64,000 bases of DNA from Collibacillus ludicampi (GCF_023705585.1 NZ_BOQE01000001.1:943341-1007340); one strand, 5' to 3'. Counted from the first letter of the stretch, positions 1 through 20,785 are shown. Translations and numbers: made by a program. The notes: generated from the letters alone by a model not told the origin.

Positions 1-723
1 CTCGTCGGCAGTATCCATCAGACTCATACCTGCTGCAAATAAGATCGGCAGAGACAGGATACCCAATAGAGGTACACCTTTCTCGACTGCACCTGCCGAT
101 ATAGCCAATAGAGCAATCTCGCTGGCGGTATCAAAACCCAAACCAAATAAAAAGCCTAACGGATACACATGCCAACTCTGGCTAATGATATGAAAGAACC
201 GCCCGATATAACGGGACAAAAAACCGCGGGATAACAGCAATCGTTCTATTTCTTTCGCTTCATAGATTCCTCGATACATTCTCGAAAATGCCTTGCAAAT
301 ATTAACCAAAATAAGCAGGTTGATTATTCCTATAAAAAGTAAAAACGATCCGGAAACCGTTGTGCCAATCAGTTCACCATATTCTTTCAAATAGGGCATT
401 TGGGTCTGTACCCACCCCACCGTAATCGTTGTTAATAAGGTAAGTAAAAACACCACCGTGGAATGTCCTAAGGAAAAGAAGAGTCCTACTCCCGATGGTT
501 CCTTTCTGTCTTGGATCAGCTTCCGAACCGTATTATCGATCGCTGCAATATGATCGGCATCAAATGCGTGACGAAGCCCAAGTGTATAGGCCAAAAAACC
601 GATTCCAAACAATGCAGGGTAGTTTCTGGCGACAAGAAACAGGCTAAGTAAACCAAAGATGTGTAAACCAATAATAATCATTCCATAACCGAACAACGGA
701 TGACTTTTCATTCGAGAAAGCAC
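1..723 (-). CDS. NiCoT-family nickel/cobalt permease (partial, runs off window)
   Basis: Membrane permease that imports Ni2+ (or Co2+). Seen: 241 codons from a GTG start at 723 with an AGGTGAGG ribosome site; several hydrophobic segments; the family signature RHAFDADHI at about residues 51-59 (the HX4DH motif of HoxN/NixA proteins) and a second conserved segment LFGLGFDTASE. The 3' end lies outside the window. It is the last gene visible in the operon-like run that includes larE and the LarA-like enzyme, so nickel supply for the pincer cofactor is the natural role. Choosing nickel over cobalt is inferred from this context. Confidence 0.9.
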   Translation of the reverse strand, partial: MLSRMKSHPLFGYGMIIIGLHIFGLLSLFLVARNYPALFGIGFLAYTLGLRHAFDADHIAAIDNTVRKLIQDRKEPSGVGLFFSLGHSTVVFLLTLLTTITVGWVQTQMPYLKEYGELIGTTVSGSFLLFIGIINLLILVNICKAFSRMYRGIYEAKEIERLLLSRGFLSRYIGRFFHIISQSWHVYPLGFLFGLGFDTASEIALLAISAGAVEKGVPLLGILSLPILFAAGMSLMDTADE

Positions 724-758
724 GAGATCCCACCTCACCTTCCTGCTTCTTTCTATCA

Positions 759-2561
759 TCAGACTTTTCGTATCCGCTCAATGCCATACTTCTTCATTTT
801 CTTAATGACAGTAGTATGAGACACCCCAAGCGCTTGCCCTACTTTCCGAATGGAACCGTAGCGCAAAAGGGATTGAATGATGAGATCGCGTTCCATCTCA
901 TCAAAGGCATTTAAGCTCCCCCTCGAATTTGCACAGTTCGTGAAATCATCCGCTTTGTGCATTTCGTTTTGTATTTGTTTTAAGGTATTCGCGGAGGGGA
1001 TTGCCGATTGGTTTTGCAAGTCGAGAAAATCATGCGGCAGATGGTTCTGAGTAATCAGTGAATCAGGTATGGTTACAACCATTCGTTCGATTAAATTGGA
1101 TAATTGCCGCACATTCCCGGGCCACGGGGAGTTCTGCAGGATCTGTATAACGACAGGATGAATGATCTTTTGGGTGCCATATTTTTGATTGTATTTATTG
1201 AGAAAATACTGAATTAATGCGGGAATGTCTTCCCGTCTTTCACGCAAGGGCGGAATGTGGATCGGAACCACATACAGCCGATAATACAGATCCTCACGAA
1301 ATAACCCCATCTGAATCCGCTCTTGCAAATTCCGATGTGTGGCGGCAATGATCCTGCAATTGACTTGGATCGGGTCGATACCACCAACGCGGGTAAACTC
1401 TTGTTCTTGCAAAACACGAAGGACTTTCACCTGAAGCGCAGGAGACATTTCACCAATTTCATCAAGAAAAATCACCCCTCCTTCTGCCGCTTCAAATAGT
1501 CCGATTTTTCCGGTTTTCTTCGCTCCCGTGAATGCGCCCGATTCATATCCGAATAATTCCGATTCAAGCAATTCCTCCGGGAGAGCCCCACAATTGATTT
1601 TGATAAAAGGTCCTTCTGAACGGGCACTAGACTTATGAATAAAAGAAGCGACGACCTCTTTCCCAACCCCCGATTCTCCCAAAATCAAAACTGTAGAATC
1701 AAAATTCGCTACTCGTCCCGCTAACTCCATCACTTTCCTCATCTGCGGAGAAATCGCAATAATTTCATCGGTGAGAACGCGTTTGCGCAGGGTTGAGAGC
1801 TCCGATTGGAAACGTTGGCTTTGGTACTGCACCATACTGAGCTCTTCACGCAACTTTGACAACTCCGTCATGTCCCGAATCGTTGAAACCACGCCTTGAA
1901 CTTTCCCCGTTTCATTTATAATAGGGACAGCGCTTACAAGATGTTCTTGTCCTGTAGGATATCGCTGAACCCCTATGACTTCTCGGCGCTCCTGCAACGC
2001 TTTCCATGTGATCGACGGCTCCTTAAACGTTCCATTCCTCACCAGCTCAGTCAAATGAACACCGACAAAAGATTCTTCGGGAACTCCTGCCAAACGGCAA
2101 AAGGACGGATTCACTCTTGTCACATATCCCAGAGCATCTGCGATAAAAATACCGTCATATGCGTGATCGATGATCGCATCCAATTGTCGGCTTCGTTCCA
2201 ACGCTTCCCGATACATTTGGTGAATCATGTTTTGCAAATCAGCCGCGTGAACCACTCCAACAAACTGATTCTGTTGATTCACGACACCAATCACGTGATA
2301 TCCGACAGGGATATGTATATCACTTATCTCCGTCTGATCGCACAAACAGGGAGCGTCAGGAATCCAAATCCCTTTATCGTTGCATGACGAAGAGCACTGA
2401 GGGAGCATGCGAAACACCCCCGCCCAGTATCCCTCGTTCAACACAGGTATTTCTATGACAGAAAGCTCTTGCATCCTTTCGATGACCCGCTCCGATTCGT
2501 TTTGCAAAACGCTTAGATCGACGGTGTACATAGGAGTTTGTACGACCTCTGAAAGAAGCAT
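759..2561 (-). CDS. Sigma-54-dependent transcriptional activator with CBS-like and PAS sensor regions
   Basis: Enhancer-binding protein that activates RNA polymerase-sigma-54. Seen, 600 residues: N-terminal CBS-like region (about 1-120) with an unusual cysteine group C56, C60, C72, C74; PAS domain about 125-235; AAA+ domain with Walker A GESGVGKE 295-302, GAFTGA 342-347 and DEIG 367-370; C-terminal Fis-type helix-turn-helix (LGVSHTTVIKKMKKYG). GAFTGA is intact, so it should contact sigma-54. Start at 2561 has an AGGAGG site. It lies between larE and the nickel permease; good -24/-12 promoters lie at 10356, 10530, 22287 and 24025. Inference: it drives this catabolic regulon, sensing a pathway ligand through PAS and perhaps redox or metal through the cysteines. 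Confidence 0.93.
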   Translation of the reverse strand: MLLSEVVQTPMYTVDLSVLQNESERVIERMQELSVIEIPVLNEGYWAGVFRMLPQCSSSCNDKGIWIPDAPCLCDQTEISDIHIPVGYHVIGVVNQQNQFVGVVHAADLQNMIHQMYREALERSRQLDAIIDHAYDGIFIADALGYVTRVNPSFCRLAGVPEESFVGVHLTELVRNGTFKEPSITWKALQERREVIGVQRYPTGQEHLVSAVPIINETGKVQGVVSTIRDMTELSKLREELSMVQYQSQRFQSELSTLRKRVLTDEIIAISPQMRKVMELAGRVANFDSTVLILGESGVGKEVVASFIHKSSARSEGPFIKINCGALPEELLESELFGYESGAFTGAKKTGKIGLFEAAEGGVIFLDEIGEMSPALQVKVLRVLQEQEFTRVGGIDPIQVNCRIIAATHRNLQERIQMGLFREDLYYRLYVVPIHIPPLRERREDIPALIQYFLNKYNQKYGTQKIIHPVVIQILQNSPWPGNVRQLSNLIERMVVTIPDSLITQNHLPHDFLDLQNQSAIPSANTLKQIQNEMHKADDFTNCANSRGSLNAFDEMERDLIIQSLLRYGSIRKVGQALGVSHTTVIKKMKKYGIERIRKV

Positions 2562-2686: not shown

Positions 2687-3517
2687 CTACTGATTCGAAA
2701 CCATATCTAATGATTGTAAGGTTTCATTTAAGCTTCCGGATCGATACCCCTGCAGATCGATGCACACGTAGGTGTATCCGATGCTCTTCAGCTTTTCTAC
2801 GACCAATTCGGAAAAACCGACCAGCTTTTGTATATCTTCCGGGGACACCTCGATACGGGCTAATTTGTCATGCTGACGTACACGCACCTGGCGGAACCCC
2901 AAGTCCATTAAGAATTGTTCCGCTTGATCGATCATGGTCAATTTTCCGAGAGTGATGACCTCGCCATAAGGAATGCGGGAGGAAAGACATGCAAACGATG
3001 GTTTATCCCAAGTTCTTAGCCCCATCTCGCGGGATAACTGCCGAATTTCTGCCTTGGTTAATCCCGCTTCCTGGAGTGGAGCGCGAACCCCATTCTCAAT
3101 GGCGGCTTGCAATCCAGGTCGATGTTCTCCCAAATCATCGGCAATAGCGCCAAACACGACATGATCGTAGCCGCGCTCCTTGGCGATCGGTATCAGATGG
3201 CTGAAAAGCTCCTGCTTGCAATAATAACAGCGGTTGGTCGGGTTTTCTGCATATCCCGGAATATTCAGCTCACTGGTTTCGATGACAAGATGCAGGCTGC
3301 CTAATTCTCCTGCCAATGCGATCGCTTCCTGGAGTTCCCTTTCCGGATAGGTTTCTGAATTCGCCGTAACCGCTAGCACACATTCGCTGCCTAACGCTTC
3401 AATCGCCGCTTTCAGCAAAAAAGTGCTGTCCACACCGCCTGAAAATGCCACCACGATACGCTTAAGTTGACGAAGATTTTGAAGCAATTGTTCATATTTA
3501 CGTCTTGCTTCTAGCAC
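2687..3517 (-). CDS. larE: LarE, sacrificial sulfur transferase for the nickel-pincer cofactor
   Basis: LarE adenylates the carboxylates of pyridinium-3,5-biscarboxylate mononucleotide and donates sulfur from a cysteine, giving the thiocarboxylates that hold nickel. Seen, 276 residues: PP-loop SGGVDS at 26-31, RCYYCK near 96-101, and PSFACLSSR with Cys177, which aligns with the known sacrificial Cys176 of Lactiplantibacillus LarE. Start is GTG at 3517 with AAGGAG nine bases upstream. It follows the aldolase gene by about 100 bases and has its own possible sigma-A promoter in that gap. Retention of the cysteine suggests the stoichiometric, self-consuming mechanism rather than the cluster-dependent variant. 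Confidence 0.93.
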   Translation of the reverse strand: MLEARRKYEQLLQNLRQLKRIVVAFSGGVDSTFLLKAAIEALGSECVLAVTANSETYPERELQEAIALAGELGSLHLVIETSELNIPGYAENPTNRCYYCKQELFSHLIPIAKERGYDHVVFGAIADDLGEHRPGLQAAIENGVRAPLQEAGLTKAEIRQLSREMGLRTWDKPSFACLSSRIPYGEVITLGKLTMIDQAEQFLMDLGFRQVRVRQHDKLARIEVSPEDIQKLVGFSELVVEKLKSIGYTYVCIDLQGYRSGSLNETLQSLDMVSNQ

Positions 3518-3572
3518 GTCGTATCGCTCCTTAGTAAAAACTAAACTGGACAGGAATCATTACTAACTCAAA

Positions 3573-3599
3573 ATTATAGTACTGTGAAATTCTTTTCAA
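3573..3599 (-). promoter_or_regulatory. Possible sigma-A promoter upstream of larE
   Basis: Minus strand TTGAAA (3594-3599) and TATAAT (3573-3578) separated by 15 bases; an alternative -35 (TATTGA) gives 17. It would give basal expression of larE, the activator gene and the nickel permease independent of the sigma-54 promoter upstream. Spacing is short, so confidence is modest. Confidence 0.4.
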
Positions 3600-3616
3600 T
3601 AGTCATTCAATGGCGG

Positions 3617-4639
3617 CTAGACGACCGTTTTCTCTTTGCGTGCGAGGCTTAATTCGTAAGCCACATCGATAATCTGATCTTCCTGGCCGCCAACGACACG
3701 GCGTTTGCCCAATTCCACGAGGATGGCAAGAGGATCGACGCCAAATTTCTCAGCGGCGCGTTTTGCATGTAAGAAAAAGCTGCTGTAAACTCCTGCATAT
3801 CCAAGGATTAATGCTACGCTATCAATGATCTGTGGACGCGACATCTTAGGTGCCACAATGTGTTCTGCCGCATGGATCAGTTGGTTTAAATCACACCCCG
3901 TCTGATATCCCGCTTTATGAAGAGCGGCAACCATGACCTCCGTCTGTGCATTGCCCGCGCCTGCCCCCATTCCGCGCAGACTGCCGTCGACATAGGTGGC
4001 TCCTTCAGCAAGAGCGGCAAGCGTGTTTCCAACCGCTACACCGAGATTGTTGTGAGCATGGAACCCGATTGGAATATTGAGTGCTTCGCGTAAGGCCGCC
4101 ACGCGTGCACGCACGCCATCCGGCAACAGTGCCCCGGCAGAATCTGTTACGTATACCACGTCAGCACCGTAACTTTCCATCTTCTTCGCTTCCTCAACGA
4201 TTCGTTCCGGACCCTCCATATGGGCCATCATCAAAAATCCAACAGTCAACAGACCTAATTGTTTCGAGGATTTGATATGCTGCTCGGAAATATCGGCTTC
4301 TGTAACATGAGTAGCTACGCGAGCCACTTTTGCCCCCAGTTCGGCAGCCGCGTGCAAATCCTTTAGGGTACCAATCCCCGGTAAGAGCAAGACTGCCACT
4401 TTGGCCTGTTTTACGACATGACAGACCGCTTTTAGATATTCTTCGTCCGATGCAAAACTGAATCCGTATTGGTAAGAAGAACCTGCCAAGCCATCCCCAT
4501 GGCCGATTTCAATAATATCCACACCGGATTGATCAAGAGCGCTTGCAATCTCAGCCATTTCGGAAGGAGTAAACTGATGTCTCACCGTGTGCATTCCATC
4601 GCGCAGAGTCGAATCTGTAATTGTTATTTTCTGTGTCAT
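3617..4639 (-). CDS. 4-hydroxy-2-oxovalerate aldolase (DmpG/MhpE family)
   Basis: Splits 4-hydroxy-2-oxopentanoate into pyruvate and acetaldehyde; in the known family it forms a channelling complex with acylating acetaldehyde dehydrogenase. Seen, 340 residues: [17 protein letters not shown] at the N-terminus (metal- and base-containing TIM-barrel start), [20 protein letters not shown], and [17 protein letters not shown], all typical. The start ATG overlaps the dehydrogenase stop by 4 bases, so the two are translationally coupled. It completes the lower meta-cleavage pathway, although no ring-cleavage enzyme is present nearby. Confidence 0.96.
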
Positions 4640-5520
4640 CTTTTAATTGCCTCCCTTTGGGATTCTTCATGTATGGCGATCCGTTTTGCAACGCCTACTG
4701 CGGCTGCCGTAATGATGTCCAGATTTCCTGAGTACTTGGGTAAATAAGCCCCCGCGCCCTCCACCTCGACCATCGCCGTGACTTTGTCTCCTTCCAAAAT
4801 CGGAGGAACTTTCAAACGGTAACCGGGGACATACGTCTGTACTTCTTTGACAATTTCTTCAACCGCACGTTCGATCGATTTTTGATCCGGGTTTTTGACT
4901 TTGGTATAGATCGTATTGCGCATCATGATTGGCGGTTCCGCCGGGTTCAGGATGATGAGCGCCTTCGCCCGGTCCGCTCCCCCGATTTGCGAGATCGCCC
5001 GTGCTGTCGTTTGTGTAAATTCATCGATATTTTGACGTGTGCCAGGTCCTGCCGATTTGCTGGCAATGGTAGCGACAATTTCTGCATATTCTACATCCGC
5101 CACTTGATTGATGGCTGCTACGATCGGTATGGTCGCCTGTCCTCCACAAGTGACGAGGTTGATATTCGGGCTTTCCAGATGAGCATCCATATTGACTGAC
5201 GGAACCACGTAGGGTCCAACTGCGGCTGGCGTTAAGTCAATGGCCCGTATTCCCGCCTCCCGCAAGAGAGGTGCGTGCTGTAGGTGCGGTTTTGCACCCG
5301 TGCAATCAAAGACCAGATCGATATCCGACCGCTTCAGAATGGCTTGAATTCCTTCGGCAGAAGTTTCGATGCCGCGTTCTCTTGCCATTCGAAGCCCGTC
5401 AGATTCAGCAATGATCCCGACCATCATGCAAAGTTCCAGTTCCTCACACTCTAACACTTTCAACATTAAATCAGTACCGATGTTACCCGGCCCTATAATT
5501 GCAGTTTTCAGTCGTTTCAT
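4636..5520 (-). CDS. Acetaldehyde dehydrogenase, acylating (DmpF/MhpF family)
   Basis: Converts acetaldehyde, CoA and NAD+ to acetyl-CoA, normally receiving acetaldehyde directly from the partner aldolase. Seen, 294 residues: nucleotide-binding GPGNIG at 10-15, the catalytic-cysteine segment VTCGGQAT with Cys125, and the family ending. Start at 5520 with GGGAGGAAAG upstream. It sits between hydratase and aldolase in the order hydratase-dehydrogenase-aldolase, the same content as the mhpDFE set. Confidence 0.96.
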
Positions 5521-5547
5521 GTTCGCTTTCCTCCCGGAAACAAATGA

Positions 5548-6333
5548 TTATTTTGATCCAAAACCAACCTGAACGGTTCCAACTCCGGCAAAATGGGCAC
5601 TGTACACATCCCCGGGCTTTACTTCATATGCCCGCGTGAAAGAACCGGACAACACGATATCACCGGCCTTCATCCCTTCGCCAAAAGTCGCCAATTTGTT
5701 ACATAGCCATGCAACCGCTGTTGCAGGATGTCCAAGTACTGCCGCTCCGGCAGCTGTATCAATCACCTCTCCATTGCGCTCCAATACGAGACCAATCAAG
5801 CGCAGGTTTACGTCATGAACGGACACACCTCGGCTCCCTAAAATCAAAGCGCCGCTTGATGCATTATCCGCTACCGTATCTTGAATTTTAATTTTCCAAT
5901 CTCGCACCCGGCTGTCGATGATTTCAAAAGCAGGTACGACATAAGCCGTGGCTTGGATGACATCCTGGAAATGCACGGCTGGCCCTTGCAAATCATGTTT
6001 CATTATAAACGCGAGTTCCGCCTCGACCTTGGGTTGCAGAAATCGCTCGTAAGGTACGAGACTTCCTTCAGGCAAAAGCATGTCATCAAACAGTGAACCA
6101 AAATCGGGTTCATGAACTCCGAGTGCGTTTTGCATCGCCTGCGATGTTAAACCGATCTTGCGCCCAATGATCCGTCTGCCCGAATCGAGCTTCCAGGCTT
6201 TCACTTGTTGTTGAATGGCATAAGAATCCTCAACCGTAATGCTTTCGTAAGTTTGGGTCAACGGTTCGATCGGCTGCCTGTTGAGTTCTGCCTCCCATAA
6301 CGCTTTCGCCGCTTTTTCCACAAATGGATTCAT
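5548..6333 (-). CDS. 2-oxopent-4-enoate hydratase (DmpE/MhpD family)
   Basis: Adds water to 2-hydroxypenta-2,4-dienoate / 2-oxopent-4-enoate to give 4-hydroxy-2-oxovalerate. Start chosen at 6333 (MNPFVEKAAK), where GGAAAGGGAG precedes the ATG; a longer in-frame extension lacks a good ribosome site. Seen, 261 residues with the family landmarks: RRIIGRKIGLTS, QPKVEAELAF (metal-binding glutamates), FEIIDSRVRDWKIK, and DIVLSGSFT near the end. Oxalocrotonate decarboxylase is a close relative, so substrate could be a substituted analogue. First of the three lower-pathway genes. Confidence 0.92.
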   Translation of the reverse strand: MNPFVEKAAKALWEAELNRQPIEPLTQTYESITVEDSYAIQQQVKAWKLDSGRRIIGRKIGLTSQAMQNALGVHEPDFGSLFDDMLLPEGSLVPYERFLQPKVEAELAFIMKHDLQGPAVHFQDVIQATAYVVPAFEIIDSRVRDWKIKIQDTVADNASSGALILGSRGVSVHDVNLRLIGLVLERNGEVIDTAAGAAVLGHPATAVAWLCNKLATFGEGMKAGDIVLSGSFTRAYEVKPGDVYSAHFAGVGTVQVGFGSK

Positions 6334-6385
6334 CGAATCTCCCTTTCCTTTTACCGTCTGTTTCAAATAAACCTCAACGGTACCA

Positions 6386-7294
6386 TCAAGAGGTCGAATG
6401 ATGGCCGTGTTGATGAGCTACCGTTTTCATCCAACGTTGTCTAAGCAAACCGGCCAACCGTTCCGCAAGAACTTCAGGTTCCGGTTGTAAGTCTATGCTT
6501 TCAACCAGAACGTCCGTACAGAGCCGGACTTCATCATGCGGACCGGGGAGTGTCACAAGGTAGGTCAAACCTTCCTTTGCCACTCCGATGCGAATCCCAT
6601 CTTTCACGTGTCTTCCGTGTCCGCGGGTAAATTTCACAATATAGGGAGTCACCGCTTCAGGGCAGACCTTCAGTAAAGCCTCTACGGTACAATCCTTGTC
6701 CTCCGCACCCACTCCACCTGTTGTCACAATCAAACCAAACCCTTGATCGAGGGCTTGGCGCAATGCGCCTGCGATCTCGTCAACATCGTCTGCCAACGGG
6801 CGGTGGGTCTGCACCTTGCAACCCGCTTCGGTAAACCGCTCGACTAAGTACGGAGTGTTTGCATCCTCGATCATCCCTTTGGCAACCTCAAATCCGGTAG
6901 GAAACACTTTTACCCGGCGGCGAACGCGATTTTGAATCTCTTCACCGATGAGGGTGCTTTTTTCCACAACCTGCTTAGCTTCGATCGGAGAGAGCGCGAT
7001 CATACCCAGTACTCCTTCAGAATGGATGTCCGCATCCGGGCCAAGCGTCACACCGGGAAGAGAACGTATCGCATCGAGCAATTCCTGTTTTTTCCCTATA
7101 AACTGGTCGTCTTTCATGGAGTGGACAAGCAAATCCAGTGCGATGTGATCTTCACGGACATCGATGACAAACACACGATCTCTGGGCAATTGCAAAACAG
7201 AAGCGACAGTTTGCGCCAATTGCGTCAAGTCACAGTCATGTAAGTAGATATCTGTGAAACGAATTTCCGTTTTATTCAAAAGACTGTACTCCAT
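6386..7294 (-). CDS. MoaB/MogA/CinA-type (MoCF) domain protein, function unknown
   Basis: Seen, 302 residues from ATG 7294 (GAGAGG upstream; an alternative ATG at 7327 overlaps the previous stop but lacks a ribosome site). An N-terminal unknown region of about 125 residues is followed by a MoCF fold: VFPTGFEVAKGMIEDAN (about 130-146), the phosphate-binding TTGGVGAEDKD at 191-201, and TLPGPHDEV. The family includes molybdopterin adenylyltransferases and CinA pyrophosphatases. No molybdenum enzyme is nearby. It lies between the phosphoribosyltransferase-like gene and the hydratase. Inference: it acts on a nucleotide-type cofactor precursor, possibly that of the nickel-pincer cofactor; this is not established. 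The tail is histidine-rich (HQHGHH). Confidence 0.72.
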   Translation of the reverse strand: MEYSLLNKTEIRFTDIYLHDCDLTQLAQTVASVLQLPRDRVFVIDVREDHIALDLLVHSMKDDQFIGKKQELLDAIRSLPGVTLGPDADIHSEGVLGMIALSPIEAKQVVEKSTLIGEEIQNRVRRRVKVFPTGFEVAKGMIEDANTPYLVERFTEAGCKVQTHRPLADDVDEIAGALRQALDQGFGLIVTTGGVGAEDKDCTVEALLKVCPEAVTPYIVKFTRGHGRHVKDGIRIGVAKEGLTYLVTLPGPHDEVRLCTDVLVESIDLQPEPEVLAERLAGLLRQRWMKTVAHQHGHHSTS

Positions 7295-7323
7295 ATCTGC
7301 GCCTCTCTTTATAGATGATAGGT

Positions 7324-8169
7324 TCATTGGATTTCGACTACATCCACTCGCATATCAAGCAGAGGCGCATTTAAAATCGCCGCCCCCACATCAACCAGAT
7401 CGACCGGAAGATCCCGAAGCAGAAGTAATGTTTCCTCTTTCACTCCTCCTGCAAAAGCAACCTTCGTATGTTGACGTGCGCCAAGATCGTTCAGAACTTG
7501 CAAGACCACATCAAGATCTTTGAGAGATCCTGTGTCAATCATGACCACGTCTGCATGGCCGCAAACCGCTTCCCGCGCTTCTTGAACGATCGGTTGTATT
7601 TCACCGCGAACCTGAATCACCTTTTTGTGATCCGGAAATTGATCGGCCGCTGCGAGCGCCTTCGCTACGCTTCCAAACATGCGAACATAATTTTTATCGA
7701 TATAGACAAAAGGGCCTTCCACCATGCGCATCCCAACATGGGCGGCCGCCAGTGCGGCATGCAGTCCGGGTTTCGATTCCTGGGGCAACTTTTTCCATCC
7801 CCCGCAAACGATCCGTACATCGGGTCCCGCCAAAAGTTGAAGTTGGCGTGCACGCGTGGCATATCCGGATGGAAGCATCATGGCACCTAAGACTCGATCC
7901 TCAGCGATGGCAACCTGTTTCGCCCTGCCGCGAAACGACAGGACAACATCACCCGGTTGCAGCAACGTTCCGTCTTCTTGACTGTGCAAGAGTTCGCATC
8001 CGAGTTCTTCTATGAAAGCGACCGCACGTCGAGAATTCGCGAGGACGCCGCAGTCCGTAACAACAACTTGAGCTGTGAACGTGCGATCGCCCAACGAGGA
8101 GAATAACGTGTCGCGAAGATCCACGTTGTCAGATTTTTTCAGTTGGTTCACGAGTTGTAGAGTTTCCAT
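7324..8169 (-). CDS. NadC/ModD-like pyridine phosphoribosyltransferase homologue
   Basis: Seen, 281 residues from ATG 8169: quinolinate-phosphoribosyltransferase layout with SGYATRARQL (about 101-110), KPGLHAALAAAHVG, KNYV, then VRGEI, MIDTG, FAGGV and DVGAAILNAPLLDM on the barrel strands. The family's quinolinate-binding TRKT segment is replaced by GGWKKLPQES (about 123-132), so quinolinate itself is unlikely. ModD proteins show a similar divergence and have no firm function. The gene sits directly downstream of the LarA-like gene. Inference: it may attach phosphoribose to, or exchange, a pyridine for a dedicated cofactor. It is clearly not the housekeeping NadC. Confidence 0.75.
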   Translation of the reverse strand: METLQLVNQLKKSDNVDLRDTLFSSLGDRTFTAQVVVTDCGVLANSRRAVAFIEELGCELLHSQEDGTLLQPGDVVLSFRGRAKQVAIAEDRVLGAMMLPSGYATRARQLQLLAGPDVRIVCGGWKKLPQESKPGLHAALAAAHVGMRMVEGPFVYIDKNYVRMFGSVAKALAAADQFPDHKKVIQVRGEIQPIVQEAREAVCGHADVVMIDTGSLKDLDVVLQVLNDLGARQHTKVAFAGGVKEETLLLLRDLPVDLVDVGAAILNAPLLDMRVDVVEIQ

Positions 8170-8184
8170 GGATCTATACACCAC

Positions 8185-9627
8185 CTATGCGTTCACCAGC
8201 ACGCCGTTTCGCCCGATGCCTCTTTGCTTTAACCACTTCGGCATCAGGATTTCATCCACTTCGACGCTCACTTTGGGAGCAACCGACAACAGATGTTCCG
8301 CTAATGATTCGCTCACATTGATGCCCCCAACTGCCCCGTCAAACACGATCACTTTGTCCGTACCCGTGGTCTTGTACGCAAATTTCATCGCATCATCGAG
8401 ATTGTCGGCGATCATCGCGTATTTCATATATTCCAGATTTTGCGGGTCGTGTTCAAACAGATCCGCCTGCTCTTTACCGACGACGATTGTGGGAAGTTGT
8501 TGCGCAAAGAACGCGCTTGGGTACCCGATCCACGCGTAGTTTTGCACGACCATGCGGATCGCCGGGTTGACCGGTTTCACTTCCGGAATCAGCGGTTTCC
8601 CGTCTTTTCCGTACAACGCTTCCGCATACCAGGTGTAGGGGGGCAATTTCACATCCAAATCGAACAAATCGGTATTCACACCGACGAAGTTACAGTAAAT
8701 CACCCCTGCAGAAAACACATACGGTACAGGACAAGGAAAATCCAATCCGACAATACATTCGTCGATTTTCCCCAACAATTGAAACACTTTTCCGTAATAA
8801 CGGAGACCGTCGACTGTAATCGTATCGTTGATCCGATAAAGATCATTGTCTGCTTCCACACTGAGCACGCCGCTCGGGGACATGTTCAAAAATACGGCAC
8901 CCACAAATTTGCTTTGCACAAACGGCGATTCGAAGATCGCTCTTGCCGTAAAGTTGGCGCCCCGCGGTCCCAGATTCTGATGATACGTGGAGCGTGTTTC
9001 GATTCGCGCATACGACATCCCAAATGGTTTTACAGCGCGATCCACCTGGCGATGGAAATGAACTTCCCGCACATCGCTGTTATGCACGTGGATAATCCAG
9101 TCTGCATCGTAAGTCCGTTTGAGACCGTAAAGCGTTCCAATTTCGGTTTCAATGGGTATCCCTTCATCAATTGGGGCCATTCCCATGGCGCGGTCAAAAT
9201 GCTGTTTCAAGTGAAAACGTTTGATATATTCTTCCGTCTCACGGAATCGAAGCCCCACGCCTGCACGCAAACGAACCTCTTTGGCTCCCGTACGCCGTTT
9301 AACCACATCATAGACCGTTCGCAGCAATTCGGCATAAGGTTCCCCGCCAAGCAGCGTAAATCCGTGGTGAGAAGCCAACACGTTTACAGTATGATGCGGT
9401 TGAATCATCGACAGATCCACTTTTTCCAAAGCGGCTTCGGCCGCACGACGGATGGCGCTTATGCCTTCCGCGCTCGGGTAGATCACTTCCGGGGTGTCGG
9501 GAAACAATTCTTGCAGCATGAGCGAAGTCATTCCCGGCAGATCCGCAAAACGTTTTTTGACAAGGCTCGGGTCAATTCCATACCGTGAGGCGCGCGGCGG
9601 AAGCGGTTGAATCGGTGCACGATGCAT
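8185..9627 (-). CDS. Divergent LarA-family (nickel-pincer-dependent) enzyme
   Basis: LarA proteins bind nickel-pincer nucleotide and move hydride at C2 of 2-hydroxyacids (racemases and epimerases). Start at 9627 has GGAGGAGG and overlaps the ferredoxin stop as TAATG. Seen, 480 residues: His190, Lys200 and His216 have exactly the spacing of LarA His174, Lys184 (covalent cofactor lysine) and His200 (nickel ligand). The segment RTYDADWIIHVHNSDVREVH aligns with the family's IAIGNVEPHYF region. The N-terminal DHTRP-type substrate motif of LarA is not seen (ASHHGFTLLGG instead), so substrate or reaction probably differs. LarE, LarC and the nickel permease genes nearby support the cofactor. No earlier name is recognised. 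Confidence 0.75.
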   Translation of the reverse strand: MHRAPIQPLPPRASRYGIDPSLVKKRFADLPGMTSLMLQELFPDTPEVIYPSAEGISAIRRAAEAALEKVDLSMIQPHHTVNVLASHHGFTLLGGEPYAELLRTVYDVVKRRTGAKEVRLRAGVGLRFRETEEYIKRFHLKQHFDRAMGMAPIDEGIPIETEIGTLYGLKRTYDADWIIHVHNSDVREVHFHRQVDRAVKPFGMSYARIETRSTYHQNLGPRGANFTARAIFESPFVQSKFVGAVFLNMSPSGVLSVEADNDLYRINDTITVDGLRYYGKVFQLLGKIDECIVGLDFPCPVPYVFSAGVIYCNFVGVNTDLFDLDVKLPPYTWYAEALYGKDGKPLIPEVKPVNPAIRMVVQNYAWIGYPSAFFAQQLPTIVVGKEQADLFEHDPQNLEYMKYAMIADNLDDAMKFAYKTTGTDKVIVFDGAVGGINVSESLAEHLLSVAPKVSVEVDEILMPKWLKQRGIGRNGVLVNA

Positions 9628-10280
9628 TATTCTTCCTCCTCCTTTACAGCGCAAGATAGATGGGATTGCGGCGCGTTTCGAATGGTTTCCAAAAACTCGA
9701 TGTCTGCGTCAAAATAAAATCCGCGTTGCGCATATTTCTCTTTCACGTGATCCGGAATATCCCAGATTGTGGGGGTTGCACCGTACCACTGATAGCGCCC
9801 GTTCGGAGATTCCGGTTCAATCCCTGCCGAGCGCAGCAGGCGCATCGCCGGTTGCAGGCATTCCACCGTACAACCTGTGCGCAATCCGGTCGCCATGGAG
9901 ATTTTATCGGGCGTATCCGCTCCCTGCAGAATGGCGGCAGCCACCTCTTCCGCACGAGTGCTTGTGCAGTAGCAAACAATTTGTTCCGGATGCAAATGAG
10001 CGTCATAACACAATTTCCGGATCTGTTCCGATTGGTGAATGTCCACGCCGATGACGCGCGGTTCATCCAATTTCGCCATCTGAATCGCGTCGAAAGGACA
10101 ACGTTGTTCGCACGCTGTACATCCCGTACAGGACTCTTCATGAACAACCGCTAATTTTTTTGCTTTGGTTCCCGGAACCGGCTCCATCGTAATGGCCAAG
10201 GTGGGGCATACTTGTGCACAAATCTTGCATCCGGTGCATTTGTCATTGAGAATGACCGCCATCGTGTTAATGAGACGCAT
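9627..10280 (-). CDS. 2x[4Fe-4S] ferredoxin fused to BFD-like [2Fe-2S] domain
   Basis: Electron carrier. Start chosen at 10280 (GGAGGGGAG upstream). Seen, 217 residues: two classical clusters C15-C18-C21-C25 and C51-C54-C57-C61, then a BFD-type domain with C103, C105, C137 and C141 (IVCYCTSTRAEEV ... RTGCTVEC), then about 75 residues ending in acidic EEEE. First gene of the minus-strand operon, 76 bases downstream of the -12 element of a strong sigma-54 promoter. Its tight coupling to the LarA-like enzyme suggests redox chemistry, either a net oxidation by that enzyme or supply of electrons for cofactor maintenance. Partner is inferred from position only. Confidence 0.9.
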   Translation of the reverse strand: MRLINTMAVILNDKCTGCKICAQVCPTLAITMEPVPGTKAKKLAVVHEESCTGCTACEQRCPFDAIQMAKLDEPRVIGVDIHQSEQIRKLCYDAHLHPEQIVCYCTSTRAEEVAAAILQGADTPDKISMATGLRTGCTVECLQPAMRLLRSAGIEPESPNGRYQWYGATPTIWDIPDHVKEKYAQRGFYFDADIEFLETIRNAPQSHLSCAVKEEEE

Positions 10281-10355
10281 CCTTTCACTCCCCTCCAGTA
10301 AGAACATTCAGTATAGGCAGAAACGTTTATTACTCTTTCCGCCACCATTTACGAA

Positions 10356-10371
10356 TGCAAATCCTGTGCCA
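10356..10371 (-). promoter_or_regulatory. Sigma-54 promoter of the ferredoxin/LarA-like operon
   Basis: Minus strand TGGCACAGGATTTGCA: exact TGGCAC-N5-TTGCA consensus with GG and GC at correct spacing. It lies 76 bases before the ferredoxin ATG. A sigma-54 activator is encoded in the same operon. Confidence 0.9.
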
Positions 10372-10431
10372 CTCGGAGATTTCAGAGAAATCAAATCAAA
10401 TGGAACTACATCGTTTCCATAAACAACGATA

Positions 10432-10469
10432 AGTTTCCAAAATATTTGGAAACTATGCGATTCCATCAT
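10432..10469. promoter_or_regulatory. Candidate enhancer (UAS) for the sigma-54 activator
   Basis: A perfect 23-base palindrome (10432-10454; arms AGTTTCCAAA / TTTGGAAACT) is followed by TATGCGATTCCATCAT (10454-10469). A near-identical 16-mer, TATGCGTTTCCATAAT, lies at 24101-24116 upstream of the lactate-permease-family gene. Position between two divergent -24/-12 promoters fits an activator-binding region serving both. Confidence 0.65.
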
Positions 10470-10529
10470 CGAGGCTTGGTTACCAGTAGAAGCTTGCTAT
10501 GCATGGAAATGGAACCATTGACGGCCTCG

Positions 10530-10545
10530 TGGCATCTGATTTGCA
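10530..10545 (+). promoter_or_regulatory. Sigma-54 promoter of the larC-like gene
   Basis: TGGCATCTGATTTGCA, one mismatch to the -24 hexamer, correct GG-N10-GC spacing, 70 bases before the ATG at 10616. Divergent from the promoter at 10356-10371. Confidence 0.85.
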
Positions 10546-10615
10546 AATCAATAAGGAAAATAGGTTTTCATACTTACACTGCGACCATTTTTTCAGCGTG
10601 AAAGGAAAGAGTACA

Positions 10616-11836
10616 ATGAACACGGCGTACATCGAATGTTTTTCCGGCGCAGACTGTGAGATTTTTCTGGGGGCGTGGTTTGATCTTGGGTTATCTCTAG
10701 ACGTTTGGAAACGGTACATGGCCAAGCTGGATATCAAAGGGGATGACATTACGGTTGAACGAGTGAAGCTGAAGGGAATTGCAGCCACAAAAGTGACCAT
10801 AAACACGCGTCATATACCGAGGTCCTTGCATCTTTCGGATATTGAACAAATCATTGATCACTGCGAATTTCCAATAATTGTAAAAGAAAAGAGTAAGCAG
10901 ATCTTTCATCACTGGGCCATTGCAGAGGCGACCGTTAGTGAAACTCTCCCGGAGAATATCTGTTTCCATCTAACAGACACATCCGACTCTCTCGAAAAAA
11001 TCGTCGGAAACGTGCTAGCTTGGCATTTGCTCGGGGAACCGGCTTGCTTTATTACAAACATTCAGGTAGGCGGCGGGTTCGTACCGTGCGCAGACGGTTT
11101 TAAGCCAGTACCGACACCGGCAACAACACATTTATTGTTAGGCTATCCTATCTTTTCTTCCGGGGTTTGGGGCGAAACAATCTCCCCAGCCGCCGCCGCT
11201 CTCATTCGCACCTTGGCACTTCCCGCCCCGCAGGAGACATTTATTGGACAAAAAATAGGATATGGGGCGGGACACCGGGATCTTCCAATCGCTAACCTCC
11301 TGCGCATCCAACTCGGGAGATGGTACTCTGAATCCCCTACCGGAGAATCTGTTGATCGGGAAGAGGATGCAGCAAAACGGACAGTCGTGATTGAAACCAA
11401 TATCGACGACATGAATCCGGAATGGGCAGGGCATCTGGTTGAACGTCTTTTGTCAATGGGCGCAATGGATGCCTACTGGATTCCTGTGGTCATGAAAAAA
11501 GGACGCCCGGGTCTCCAGTTGCGAGTCGCGTGCTCCGCGGAACGGCAGATGGCCTTGCAAGAAGAGATTGTCAGGCAAACAACGACGATCGGGATGCGTT
11601 ATTATGAGGTGGGAAAATGGTCCGTACCGCATAAAATCGTCTACGTCTCGACAGTGTACGGAGAAATGCCGGTGAAACTGGCGTATTTGGGAAGTGAAGT
11701 TGTCAACGTGGCCCCGGAATACGAATTCTGCCGCCAGTCGGCGGAACGACTCGGCATTCCGGTCAAACTGGTTTATCAGACGGTTTTAGCTGAGGCGATC
11801 AAAGAGTATCGTCTGCCATTGAAGTCAAATCGCTGA
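10616..11836 (+). CDS. larC: LarC-like nickel-insertion protein for the pincer cofactor
   Basis: LarC inserts nickel into the bis-thiocarboxylate pyridinium mononucleotide in a CTP-dependent step. Start chosen at 10616 (MNTAYIECFSG) after GAAAGGAAAG and downstream of the sigma-54 promoter. Seen, 406 residues as one uninterrupted frame (some species split it by frameshift): IETNIDDMNPE, MKKGRPG, TTIGMRYYE and VAPEYEFCRQSAERLGIPVKLV are conserved C-terminal landmarks. The usual N-terminal CFSGISGDM is altered to CFSGADCEI, and the His-rich linker is reduced. Paralogue or specialised form is possible; family membership is solid. It is co-regulated with the LarA-like operon through the shared control region. 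Confidence 0.88.
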   Translation: MNTAYIECFSGADCEIFLGAWFDLGLSLDVWKRYMAKLDIKGDDITVERVKLKGIAATKVTINTRHIPRSLHLSDIEQIIDHCEFPIIVKEKSKQIFHHWAIAEATVSETLPENICFHLTDTSDSLEKIVGNVLAWHLLGEPACFITNIQVGGGFVPCADGFKPVPTPATTHLLLGYPIFSSGVWGETISPAAAALIRTLALPAPQETFIGQKIGYGAGHRDLPIANLLRIQLGRWYSESPTGESVDREEDAAKRTVVIETNIDDMNPEWAGHLVERLLSMGAMDAYWIPVVMKKGRPGLQLRVACSAERQMALQEEIVRQTTTIGMRYYEVGKWSVPHKIVYVSTVYGEMPVKLAYLGSEVVNVAPEYEFCRQSAERLGIPVKLVYQTVLAEAIKEYRLPLKSNR

Positions 11837-13290: not shown

Positions 13291-13402
13291 AAAAGGGGAT
13301 GTTCACAAAAAATCAACATTACGGTTATAGTTTTGTCACTTGATAAGTCGTAGCAGATTTGTTTTTTTATAAACAGTAGAAGCATCCTTGGAGGAAGATA
13401 CG

Positions 13403-14083
13403 ATGCCATCTGCACGAAAGAATTCCCTACGCAAGTTTCCCGTCTTTCACACACTCTCTGAGCAGCGCATGATGGAGATCATGAAATACGCTTTTTTCCG
13501 GAAGTATCATAAGGGCCAGATCTTGTTCATGGAGGGAGATCCGCGGGATCGGATCTATCTTTTGCTTAACGGCTATATCAAGCTGGTCAGGATGAACGAT
13601 GATTGTACCAGCCCATTTTTCTTGTATCTTAAGCCGTATAGCATTTTCCCCTGTATCGGACTGTTCCAGGACAGACATTACCGTTTTTCCGGAGAAGCCG
13701 TAACCGATGTTGAACTCATCTATTTCCCGACGGCCAAATTTGAATGGTTGATCCAGAAAGACCCCACTGTCCTGATTAATTGGATACGTATCATGGACGA
13801 CAAGATGCATGAACTTGAAATACGGATCCAAAAGTTGACTCAAGTCCACGCCACCGATCGGGTGCGTCAACTGATCAGTCTCCTCATCAAGGACATCGGA
13901 GAGAAAACGGATGCCTCCACCATCCGCATTCCCTGTCCGCTCACTACCACCGACCTGGCCAGAATGGCCGGCACCAGCCGGGAGACAGTCAGTCACGTCC
14001 TACAGAAATACAAAGCTTCCGGCAAACTGATGATCGAATCAAAAATCATCACAATCACCGATCCCGCGTTTTTTATGAGATGA
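13403..14083 (+). CDS. Crp/Fnr-family transcriptional regulator
   Basis: Start chosen at 13403 (MPSARKNS) with TTGGAGGA upstream. Seen, 226 residues: cyclic-nucleotide-binding-type beta barrel (KGQILFMEGDPRDRIYLLLNGYIKL), long dimer helix, and winged helix with TTTDLARMAGTSRETVSHVLQKYK as recognition helix. There is no N-terminal Fnr cysteine cluster, so oxygen sensing by an iron-sulfur cluster is not indicated; the ligand is unknown. The good palindrome at 13273-13290 suggests autoregulation and control of the divergent alcohol dehydrogenase. Its 3' end overlaps the convergent UbiD gene by 11 bases. Confidence 0.9.
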   Translation: MPSARKNSLRKFPVFHTLSEQRMMEIMKYAFFRKYHKGQILFMEGDPRDRIYLLLNGYIKLVRMNDDCTSPFFLYLKPYSIFPCIGLFQDRHYRFSGEAVTDVELIYFPTAKFEWLIQKDPTVLINWIRIMDDKMHELEIRIQKLTQVHATDRVRQLISLLIKDIGEKTDASTIRIPCPLTTTDLARMAGTSRETVSHVLQKYKASGKLMIESKIITITDPAFFMR

Positions 14084-15473
14084 CATGGACTCCTTCAAGG
14101 TGAACCGATCGGAGAGAAGTTTCAGGACTGATATAATCCTCCAAATGGATCTCATCATAACCGGGAATTCGTATTCGCAAATACCGCATAGGTTCACTGT
14201 TTAAAGGAACTGTGCAATCCAATCCCATCTTCGACCCGACCCCGTTATCGGTTGACGGATCCAGTTTTGATCCCTGAGCACCATGGATCACGACTAAATC
14301 CCTTTCCGCCTGAAAGCGGGTCGCGATTGCCCACTCCACCTCTTCCATATTAAATATGTCTACTTCTTCATCTACGACAACTACGTGTTTTATATCAAAA
14401 CTGTTGGCAAGTGCGGCAAAAATCGCATTCTTCCCTTCACCCTCGTTACGTTTTTTTATCGAAACGATTGCATGATAGCGACAGGTTCCCCCTGGGCTCA
14501 TGTGTACCGCTTTCACCGTCGGCACAGTCTGTCGAATGCTCTGGAACAGGCTTGCTTCGCGCGGAATGCCCCCAAGAAGAAGATGCTCATAGCCCGCCGG
14601 TACAATCGTATAAAAAATCGGGTGGTTTCGATGAGTGACCGCTGTGATCTGTACGACTTCCTTATCGCTCCGGGGACCGTAGTATTTCGGAAATTCCCCG
14701 AAAGGACCTTCCGGCTCGCGGACATGCGGAAGGATTTTGCCCTCCAGCACAATTTCCGCATACGCAGGCACATCGATGTCAACCGTCTCGCAACGAACGA
14801 CTTCAAGCGGTTCTCCACGCAGGGCGCTCGCAATTTCAAGTTCATCCACACCGAATGGAGTGCTCGCTTGGGAAGCGAGCAACGTCACCGGATCGACCCC
14901 GATCACAATCGCGCATTCAAGCGGCCTGCCCTCCTCTTCAGCCTGTTTGTATAAATGAAACGTGTGGCGGGGAAGGAGCAAAGCCCCCAGTTTGTCTTTC
15001 CCTGAAACTTGCAAACGGTGAATCGAAACGTTTTGCTTGCGGGTGACCGGATCCCGGACAATAAACAATCCGGCTGTGATGTAGTTGCCCGAATCCTTCT
15101 CATGGTGAACCGGAATCGGAAACAGCTTCATCAAATCGATGTTTTCCCGAATGATATTTTCTTTGACCGGCGCTTGCTCCCTCTCCACATGCCGGCATGG
15201 GACAGGGGAATCAACTGCCTTGGTAAACTTCGGAATAATCCCGTACGGATCCGTGTCCAACGCTTCCGCAAAATCTTCCCGGGTTGAGCAAATTCCTGAC
15301 ACAACAGGCACCGTATACTCTTCCACCTGGGTGAAATAGACCGCCTTTTTACCGTCCAATTTTTTTGCCACCGCGGCAAGTTCAAATTCTAAACCGACCT
15401 TTTTCCCGATGACAGCCAAACGGCCCACCGATTCCAGATATTCAAGCCAGGTTCGAAATGTCTTTGCTTTCAT
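14073..15473 (-). CDS. UbiD-family prenylated-FMN-dependent (de)carboxylase
   Basis: Reversible non-oxidative decarboxylase of aromatic or alpha,beta-unsaturated acids using prenyl-FMN. Seen, 466 residues: NVSIHRLQV (metal/cofactor site), the catalytic REPEGPFGEFPKYYG with the conserved glutamate, TAVTHRNHPIFYT, and SPGGTCRYHAIVSIKK. The UbiX prenyltransferase that makes the cofactor is not in this window. It is 16 bases downstream of the sodium:solute symporter gene, so the pair probably imports and decarboxylates one acid. Substrate cannot be read from sequence; hydroxybenzoate-type enzymes and others share these motifs. Confidence 0.93.
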   Translation of the reverse strand: MKAKTFRTWLEYLESVGRLAVIGKKVGLEFELAAVAKKLDGKKAVYFTQVEEYTVPVVSGICSTREDFAEALDTDPYGIIPKFTKAVDSPVPCRHVEREQAPVKENIIRENIDLMKLFPIPVHHEKDSGNYITAGLFIVRDPVTRKQNVSIHRLQVSGKDKLGALLLPRHTFHLYKQAEEEGRPLECAIVIGVDPVTLLASQASTPFGVDELEIASALRGEPLEVVRCETVDIDVPAYAEIVLEGKILPHVREPEGPFGEFPKYYGPRSDKEVVQITAVTHRNHPIFYTIVPAGYEHLLLGGIPREASLFQSIRQTVPTVKAVHMSPGGTCRYHAIVSIKKRNEGEGKNAIFAALANSFDIKHVVVVDEEVDIFNMEEVEWAIATRFQAERDLVVIHGAQGSKLDPSTDNGVGSKMGLDCTVPLNSEPMRYLRIRIPGYDEIHLEDYISPETSLRSVHLEGVHVIS

Positions 15474-15489
15474 TGAATGAGCTCCTTCC

Positions 15490-16896: not shown

Positions 16897-16992
16897 TTTT
16901 TGGCCCCCTTTCGTATAAAAAATGGCCGCTGTTGTGCCGAATCTATTCTCATCCGCCGATCCAACATGATCATCAATCGGTACGTTTTTGGC

Positions 16993-17008
16993 GACAATAG
17001 TGCGGCCA
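16993..17008 (-). promoter_or_regulatory. Weak sigma-54-like sequence before symporter/ubiD
   Basis: Minus strand TGGCCGCACTATTGTC has correct GG position and TTG, but GT replaces the invariant GC of the -12 element. Listed only because every neighbouring operon has a good sigma-54 site. The remainder of 16897-17142 shows nothing else recognisable. Confidence 0.2.
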
Positions 17009-17142
17009 ATTCTTTAAGAGATCCCCATGCACCCCTACAACTTAGAAATATTTGCTTATTTGTCAGGACATGCGGATGTATTGATTTCGACAGTATCCCG
17101 TAATCATCAGGTTTCCGTTCGTCATACGATTCCCTCGTTTGA

Positions 17143-18009: not shown

Positions 18010-18062
18010 ACCCTGATACCTCCTTAAAATTTTTGTTTATAGATAAATTTTGATTATTGAAA

Positions 18063-19241: not shown

Positions 19242-19262
19242 TCTTTTCCTCCTCCTTTCGAT

Positions 19263-20735: not shown

Positions 20736-20785
20736 TTTTCTCCCCCTCTGTGAAATTATTGCATGACCTGCCACCGTACATGATT

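Follow-up and report, generated by a model that had tools for sequence, protein, structure and literature searches.

Genes for a nickel-pincer cofactor and genes of a lower meta-cleavage pathway share one operon in a 64,000-nucleotide stretch of the Collibacillus ludicampi genome (GCF_023705585.1, NZ_BOQE01000001.1:943341-1007340; hereafter the window, meaning the whole stretch), which raises the question of what chemistry could join them. At the centre of the operon is a LarA-like protein, here called X489. The answer that we favour, at slightly better than an even chance, is that the locus encodes an oxygen-independent furan-acid pathway in which X489 would be a ferredoxin-dependent nickel-pincer enzyme that opens the ring of 2-furoate, a plant-derived acid, reductively. 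The gene content of the locus, its conservation, the predicted fold of X489 and the association with an HmfF-like UbiD decarboxylase are reported below as found; substrate, cofactor, electron path and mechanism are what we infer.

Operon organization

Read from a sigma-54 site along the minus strand, the operon consists of genes for a ferredoxin, X489, a QPRT-like protein, a MoCF-domain protein, a DmpE-like hydratase, DmpF, DmpG and LarE, closely packed and in several cases overlapping. Downstream of LarE lie a PAS/sigma-54 activator and then, running into the left edge of the window, a nickel permease, with larB beyond that edge. The features are as follows, L032 being the contig on which the two genes reaching or lying beyond the edge are numbered.

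1..759, minus strand: HoxN/NixA-type nickel permease (PF03824, 245.3 bits for the portion inside the window; about 290 bases more lie outside)
L032 5051-6100: the complete nickel permease gene
L032 4194-5111: LarB, outside the window and next to the permease (NF033503, 284.5 bits, cut-off 175)
759..2561, minus strand: PAS-containing sigma-54-dependent activator (Sigma54_activat, PAS, HTH_50)
2687..3517, minus strand: LarE, ATP-dependent sacrificial sulfur transferase (TIGR00268, 354.6 bits, cut-off 150)
3617..4639, minus strand: DmpG-like 4-hydroxy-2-oxovalerate aldolase (TIGR03217, 516.5 bits, cut-off 286)
4636..5520, minus strand: DmpF-like acylating acetaldehyde dehydrogenase (TIGR03215, 452.1 bits, cut-off 282.25)
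5548..6366, minus strand: 2-oxopent-4-enoate hydratase-like protein of the DmpE/HpaH family (best TIGR03220, 314.5 bits, below the cut-off of 408.8)
6386..7327, minus strand: MoCF-domain protein that also has an N-terminal part of about 130 residues (PF00994, 81.9 bits)
7324..8184, minus strand: QPRT-like protein (PF01729/PF02749; nadC 82 bits, cut-off 198.4)
8185..9654, minus strand: X489, predicted LarA-fold protein (AlphaFold2 fold; no family match by sequence)
9627..10307, minus strand: ferredoxin carrying a BFD-like 2Fe-2S domain besides two 4Fe-4S motifs (two Fer4, Fer2_BFD)
10356..10371, minus strand: sigma-54 -24/-12 promoter of the operon (exact match to TGGCAC-N5-TTGCA)
10530..10545, plus strand: sigma-54-like site upstream of larC (one mismatch)
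10616..11836, plus strand: LarC, nickel insertion protein, divergent (PF01969, 331.7 bits)

X489 probably begins with the ATG at 9627, which overlaps the stop codon of the ferredoxin gene; both the sequence and the relatives point there. The larC open reading frame (ORF) opens at 10499, and the start at 10616 was taken from the sequence. The ferredoxin cysteines fall at positions 24/27/30/34, 60/63/66/70 and 112/114/146/150. Sigma-54 matches with at most one mismatch number seven in the window against 1.97 expected, and none of 100 shuffles reached seven.

An earlier note on this DNA had described a sigma-54-controlled unit of nickel-pincer and lower-pathway genes, and their content, order and control are as it said. 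The interval that it gave, 2687-11836, stands as part of a unit that is probably larger, with the genes from UbiD to an MFS transporter at 14073-22114 following. In line with that note, the nickel-pincer and lower-pathway genes look like one functional unit.

Conservation of the cassette

Across 398 sampled genomes, all from the phylum of the window (Bacillota, to judge from named relatives), X489 was found in 27: 28 matched, one (G067, 26% over 135 residues) was dropped, and setting aside a fragment in G042 leaves 26 full-length cases. No match was found on plasmids. A second set comprises the best 80 of 142 X489 relatives in a contig collection (63-91% identity to X489) and overlaps the first, several loci lying on identical contigs. 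Flanks of 10 kb were fetched around these loci, many of which are cut by contig ends; the 35 whose flanks reach 8 kb or more to both sides of X489 are called full-flank loci.

The ferredoxin accompanies X489 in 77 of the 80 loci and in all 35 full-flank loci. The corresponding pairs of counts are 67 and 33 for MoCF, 65 and 34 for DmpE, 65 and 32 for QPRT, 52 and 26 for DmpG, 50 and 26 for DmpF, 22 and 14 for LarB, 21 and 14 for LarC, 13 and 10 for LarE, and 10 and 5 for UbiD, so that each single Lar gene is found in fewer than half of the full-flank loci. L074, one of three full-flank loci without a separate QPRT gene, is the contig carrying a fused QPRT-MoCF gene. Median identity is highest for X489 itself (68%), followed by DmpF (64%), DmpG (60%), MoCF (45%) and QPRT (39%).

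The gene set is widespread. The 80 loci, as labelled, come from Bacillota, from deltaproteobacterial, myxobacterial and Chloroflexi metagenome-assembled genomes (MAGs), from Breznakiella and from an Archaeoglobus MAG; hosts of the cassette include sulfate reducers, acetogens, Clostridium, Oscillibacter and the Archaeoglobus MAG, and are mostly anaerobes. Among the laboratory strains that carry it are Desulforamulus putei DSM 12395, Moorella thermoacetica DSM 21394 and Aneurinibacillus terranovensis DSM 18919. X489 is also present in Flavonifractor plautii, as it is in Oscillibacter. Because the set is conserved across related loci, including these 80, as far as the contigs reach, its assembly is not due to chance. 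Neighbouring genes, clustered and typed with Pfam from one member apiece (clusters with few loci are mostly untyped), include a BenE-type transporter in 42 loci, an iron-containing alcohol dehydrogenase in 12 and an aldehyde:ferredoxin oxidoreductase in 11.

X489 and its proposed cofactor

Sequence searches of X489 against Pfam, NCBIfam and the PDB gave no family match; at E-values up to 10, Pfam returned only Phage_attach (0.078) and NCBIfam nothing. An AlphaFold2 model built from 55 sequences has a mean predicted local distance difference test score (pLDDT) of 83 and a predicted TM-score of 0.87. Foldseek gave four hits with E<=1e-3 for this model, all of them LarA or Mar2, and VIA-align placed 12 LarA-family entries at Z 15.6-18.5 (root-mean-square deviation 3.8-7.2 over 306-343 residues), with the next entry at 6.5. 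By its model, X489 has a LarA fold, and the label 'LarA-like' in the earlier note is correct in this sense, although no sequence model detects it. It was the fold search alone that settled the relationship, since sequence and profile searches failed; as X489 does not match Lar_N (PF09861), we class it as a LarA-fold protein and not as a Lar_N family member.

A motif H199-x9-K209-x15-H225 is invariant in the 55 aligned X489 sequences, and its spacing is kept in all 80 relatives. It equals the LarA spacing of catalytic His, tether Lys and nickel-ligand His, as is also seen by alignment, the lysine of LarA Lp being Lys184. Within the putative Lys/His motif region, model residues 211-221 have pLDDT under 50. 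Excerpts of PMC12611868 name His174 for LarA Lp, and Lys183 and His199 for LarA Ip.

LarE is encoded in all 26 genomes with full-length X489 and LarC in 25 of them; LarC occurs in 225 of the 398 genomes, and its association with X489 is significant (Fisher 5.6e-6). In three of the 26, one of them the genome of the window, LarC and LarE are present although no Lar_N protein is, so that X489 is the only visible client of the Lar genes there. X489 would accordingly hold a nickel-pincer nucleotide made by LarB, LarE and LarC.

The QPRT-like protein is tied closely to X489. It matches (E<=1e-25) in 30 of the 398 genomes, namely the 27 with X489 and three others (Fisher 7e-39). In two of those three the contig ends inside the cassette, after QPRT and MoCF in one and QPRT, MoCF, DmpE and DmpF in the other; in the third, G091, the protein is 29% identical and its gene has LarB and LarE as neighbours, with the molybdenum-cofactor gene YqeB close by. 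In one locus QPRT is fused to MoCF (L053; among the full-flank loci, L074). By Pfam the protein belongs with NadC and ModD, and its Asp217 aligns with a conserved NadC Asp that belongs to the phosphoribosyl pyrophosphate site; some positions that presumably bind quinolinate look changed in the alignment. It differs from both in scoring far below the NadC model (TIGR00078; 82 bits against 198.4), in giving, for the window protein, no match to ModD (TIGR01334), and in being found almost exclusively with X489. The AlphaFold2 model of the MoCF protein (pLDDT 91.2) drew CinA, MogA, MoaB and gephyrin-type domains in Foldseek, aligned mainly over the MoCF domain, which by this prediction has the MogA/MoaB/CinA fold.

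A modified pincer cofactor is suggested by the nearly exclusive pairing of QPRT with X489, by the QPRT-MoCF fusion and by the fact that X489 has apparently lost residues that contact the cofactor in LarA. Tailoring of the pincer cofactor to X489 is the most likely task of the QPRT-like and MoCF proteins, a functional guess resting on their association. Two other roles were considered and dropped: replacement of LarB, which lies just outside the window, and quinolinate or nicotinate degradation, for which carbon count and neighbours are unfit and the NadC score far too low.

In G091 the gene cluster (L170 8596-11418) also holds XdhC-like and molybdenum-hydroxylase-like genes, to judge from their sequences, and hints that accessory genes for the pincer cofactor and for molybdenum hydroxylases are linked.

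The UbiD and dehydrogenase block

To the right of larC lies a second group of genes.

13388..14083, plus strand: Crp/Fnr-type regulator, by association only (cNMP_binding, HTH_Crp_2)
14073..15473, minus strand: UbiD-type decarboxylase dependent on prenylated flavin mononucleotide, HmfF-like (best PDB match 6h6v, 586 bits)
15490..16896, minus strand: sodium:solute symporter, possibly for acid uptake (PF00474)
17143-18009, minus strand: R2-like ligand-binding oxidase (NF006200, 242.1 bits, cut-off 194)
18063..19241, minus strand: iron-containing alcohol dehydrogenase (PF00465/PF25137)
19263..20951, minus strand: aldehyde dehydrogenase (PF00171, 530.9 bits)
20786..22114, minus strand: MFS transporter (PF07690)

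The UbiD gene lies 4.4 kb from X489. Among PDB entries its product matches 6h6v (586 bits) and 6h6x (576 bits), followed by the next distinct enzyme, 7ae4 (215 bits), and by 4ip2 (108.8 bits); we take the first two to be HmfF (their PDB name is generic) and the last to be PA0254/HudA. HmfF converts 2,5-furandicarboxylate to 2-furoate. Relative to the 6h6v chain, the window protein keeps the His at position 296 and the Arg residues at positions 304 and 331, and all three sites are kept in eight of eight neighbouring HmfF-like UbiDs. This His is the one that PMC7976604 calls key for furan substrates, with the number 297.

UbiDs with at least 57% identity to that of the window occur in seven of the 398 genomes, and all seven carry X489 on the same contig, less than 16 kb away (Fisher 3e-9, or 4e-8 without the genome of the window). 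More distant UbiDs (41-51%) occur in 12 genomes, two of them with X489. The ten UbiDs in the 80 loci comprise eight full-length HmfF-like proteins (49-86% identity), one cut fragment and one protein at 34%. UbiD is under-counted among the loci because those of G178 and G343, at 14-15 kb, fall outside the fetched flanks.

Next to X489, the window shares with L063, L064 and L109 a block of MFS transporter, aldehyde dehydrogenase and iron-containing alcohol dehydrogenase genes, the relatives being 65-77%, 56-86% and 49-77% identical, respectively. A zinc alcohol dehydrogenase is also among the right-flank genes of the window.

The lower pathway

DmpF and DmpG score above their curated cut-offs and the DmpE-like protein below; by sequence the latter belongs to the hydratase/decarboxylase family, and a DmpE-type substrate is putative for it. 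As in the known lower meta-cleavage pathway, hydratase, aldolase and acylating acetaldehyde dehydrogenase share an operon; unlike it, the unit shows no ring-cleavage dioxygenase. The earlier note had reported this absence, and no extradiol dioxygenase is among the annotated ORFs of the window, which are part of its full set.

A further difference lies in the aldolase. Twelve genomes, several of them MAGs, were checked for DmpG (those of the nine full-flank loci without it and of L107, L109 and L128); a DmpG above cut-off is absent from ten and present in Alicyclobacillus suci and Aneurinibacillus terranovensis. The aldolase is therefore strictly no obligate partner of X489. Of the 28 loci that lack DmpG, 13 carry a pyruvate- or indolepyruvate-type ferredoxin oxidoreductase; of the 52 that have it, one does (Fisher 1.3e-6). 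With only full-flank loci counted, the figures are six of nine and one of 26 (Fisher 3e-4). Because these 2-oxoacid:ferredoxin oxidoreductases are far commoner where the aldolase is missing, such loci seem to have replaced the lower pathway and not to have lost the link to it. There, 4-hydroxy-2-oxovalerate would be decarboxylated oxidatively to 3-hydroxybutyryl-CoA, and 4-hydroxy-2-oxovalerate would thus be an intermediate common to both variants. The earlier note had named conservation of the LarA-like genes apart from the lower pathway as evidence against its idea: the hydratase is kept in 34 of the 35 full-flank loci, and the aldolase and acetaldehyde dehydrogenase in 26 only. It had also proposed that the LarA-like protein and the ferredoxin prepare a non-aromatic or unusual hydroxyacid for this pathway. 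That they make a precursor of 4-hydroxy-2-oxovalerate remains the most likely view; a non-aromatic hydroxyacid has become less likely, since the HmfF-type UbiD, the alcohol and aldehyde dehydrogenases and the BenE-type transporters point to furan-2-carboxylate.

Proposed pathway

The association with HmfF-like UbiDs, the dehydrogenase neighbours and the formula all suggest 2-furoate as the substrate: 2-furoate (C5H4O3) plus 2H gives C5H6O3, which is 2-hydroxypenta-2,4-dienoate, the substrate of DmpE. In the pathway that we propose, 2-furoate or 2,5-furandicarboxylate would arise from furfuryl alcohol, furfural or hydroxymethylfurfural through oxidation by alcohol and aldehyde dehydrogenases, and the HmfF-type UbiD would decarboxylate the dicarboxylate to 2-furoate. 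LarB, LarE and LarC would make the nickel-pincer nucleotide held by X489, the QPRT-like and MoCF proteins would tailor it, and the ferredoxin would supply two electrons. The reduced cofactor would then donate a hydride to furan C5, and the resulting C4 anion would expel the ring oxygen (C5-O cleavage) to give the enol 2-hydroxypenta-2,4-dienoate; organic chemistry suggests that these two events could yield the dienol directly. DmpE would hydrate it to 4-hydroxy-2-oxovalerate, and DmpG and DmpF would convert this to pyruvate and acetyl-CoA; other hosts would obtain 3-hydroxybutyryl-CoA by means of a 2-oxoacid:ferredoxin oxidoreductase, with electrons passing back to ferredoxin. The specific chemistry, namely that a LarA-fold, ferredoxin-dependent hydride-transfer reductase breaks the furan C-O bond with a pincer nucleotide modified by QPRT-like and MogA-like proteins, we put forward tentatively, at somewhat less than an even chance.

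Alternative explanations

The same reductive opening might act mainly on another heteroaromatic acid, pyrrole-2-carboxylate or a substituted furan acid, with HmfF and the furan block as one feeder. The carbon skeleton of pyrrole-2-carboxylate also fits, C-N cleavage and then loss of ammonia leading to 2-oxopent-4-enoate; moreover, 70 of the 80 loci lack UbiD in the fetched flanks, and the BenE-type transporter cluster suggests a generic aromatic acid. We nevertheless hold this to be unlikely, if with some real chance, given that the X489-linked UbiDs resemble 6h6v and not PA0254/HudA, that aldehyde-oxidising neighbours suit furans, which arise as aldehydes, and that UbiD is under-counted. Less probable still is a reading along the lines of the earlier note, in which X489 would racemise or isomerise a C5 2-hydroxyacid such as 2-hydroxypent-4-enoate, whose oxidation product would enter at 2-oxopent-4-enoate. 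The predicted LarA fold agrees with it, and the LarA enzymes described in the available texts of PMC7583248, PMC11770544 and PMC12611868 use 2-hydroxyacids, the first two presenting the homologs of LarA as racemases and epimerases of such acids. A redox-neutral racemase, however, has no need of the three-cluster-motif ferredoxin present in nearly every locus; there is no 2-hydroxyacid dehydrogenase in the twelve neighbour clusters that each reach at least 14 of the 80 loci, and the HmfF association is left unexplained.

It is likewise improbable, and to a similar degree, that X489 works without the nickel-pincer nucleotide, the QPRT-like and MoCF proteins serving molybdopterin or another cofactor and the lar genes serving other LarA proteins. 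Canonical Lar_N proteins are indeed present in 23 of the 26 X489 genomes, Lar genes adjoin X489 in the minority of full-flank loci counted above, and the QPRT-like gene of G091, which has no X489, lies near YqeB. That gene, on the other hand, also adjoins LarB and LarE; the three X489 genomes without Lar_N keep LarC and LarE, and the operon of the window has genes for LarB, LarC, LarE and a nickel permease at its flanks. Hardly credible, finally, is the reading that distant catechol dioxygenases feed what is an ordinary lower meta-cleavage operon, the lar genes lying next to it by chance. The host genome does contain two catechol-2,3-dioxygenase-like matches, about 1.4-1.6 Mb away and below the cut-off (246 and 219 bits against 320), and such sub-cut-off matches occur in nine of 14 control genomes; against this reading, the cassette recurs in the mostly anaerobic hosts listed above.

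A number of points weigh against the furoate ring-opening pathway that we prefer. The TM-scores of the Foldseek hits are low (0.34-0.46) and a profile-profile comparison of X489 with 16 Lar_N proteins was not significant (probability 0.76%, E 0.074), and for these reasons the equivalence of X489 and LarA residues rests on fold and spacing. Reading of the alignments suggests that SHHGFT replaces the DxTR of LarA in X489, that the first catalytic His is lost and that one His is kept. One X489 genome, G308, has no LarC, and in the 23 genomes with canonical Lar_N proteins the nickel-pincer link is weaker. The 34% UbiD, in L130, keeps the His but not Arg304, which shows that the His alone is not diagnostic, and with UbiD in only 10 of the 80 fetched flanks most loci give no direct furan clue. 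The two distant catechol-2,3-dioxygenase-like proteins could feed DmpEFG, and the host genome, which has two MoCoBD_1 proteins, might hold a furoyl-CoA route through a molybdenum hydroxylase. Several hosts (Alicyclobacillus, Aneurinibacillus) are aerobes. A different, oxidative route is ascribed to Desulfovibrio furfuralis in a secondary citation within PMC11384913.

Other observations at the loci

An M24-peptidase/creatinase-type protein (cluster c8) is encoded near X489 in 35 of the 80 loci, and DUF3842-type proteins (cluster c21) lie near the cassette in six (for example, L127 15744-16154). The R2-like ligand-binding oxidase of the window sits inside the dehydrogenase block, and a relative adjoins the block of L063 with 82% identity over 125 residues. 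The LarC of the window is divergent in sequence, with a median identity of 36% to 15 LarCs of other X489 loci, and another LarC, encoded at G000:C1:3722956-3724239 in the host genome, scores higher (492 against 332 bits). The Alicyclobacillus suci locus has two LarC-like ORFs (L064 8511-9338 and 13243-14448; 275 and 401 residues), perhaps a split or paired LarC.

Relation to known systems and significance

X489 resembles the lactate racemase superfamily (LarA, Mar2, LarAHs; Lar_N PF09861) in predicted fold, in the H-x9-K-x15-H spacing and in its link to LarB/C/E and nickel-uptake genes. It departs from that superfamily in lacking a sequence-model match, in the apparent loss of DxTR and the first catalytic His, in its constant ferredoxin, QPRT-like and MoCF partners, and in a context that suggests net two-electron reduction and not isomerisation. 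The main texts of PMC7583248 and PMC11770544 contain no words starting 'ferredoxin' or 'aldolase'. Excerpts of PMC12611868 describe LarA homologs that have one catalytic His and no measured activity, and give the nickel-pincer nucleotide a mass of about 449 Da.

With furfural and furoate degradation of the Cupriavidus basilensis type the locus shares an HmfF-type UbiD and aldehyde oxidation to furan acids; it differs in placing a LarA-fold protein and DmpEFG after the HmfF step. The known furoate route passes furoyl-CoA and a hydroxylase. Its course from furan-2-carboxylic acid to 2-oxopentanedioic acid is given in the available part of PMC11384913, and HmfF/G are described in that of PMC6644310. 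In the open-access literature, which offers no proof of novelty, we found no enzyme for oxygen-free furoate ring opening and no nickel-pincer or ferredoxin-dependent furoate reductase.

How anaerobes open furan rings has long been a question: a strict anaerobe that degrades furfural was reported in 1989 (Folkerts et al., cited in PMC11384913). An oxygen-free route from furans to acetyl-CoA would have practical use, because furans are described as inhibitory in plant-biomass hydrolysates and furandicarboxylate as a plastic monomer. Dietary furans may also be substrates in people, since Flavonifractor plautii and Oscillibacter, both gut bacteria, carry X489. If the proposal is true, the roles of two orphan families, QPRT-like and MoCF-like, become directly testable, and the nickel-pincer nucleotide becomes a reductive catalyst, beyond its place as a racemase cofactor. 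X489 would then be, to our knowledge, the first net-redox nickel-pincer enzyme, with a second form of the cofactor, and this new use would be spread over Bacillota and deltaproteobacterial, Chloroflexi and Archaeoglobus MAGs; with its chemistry confirmed, it would merit the label categorically new.

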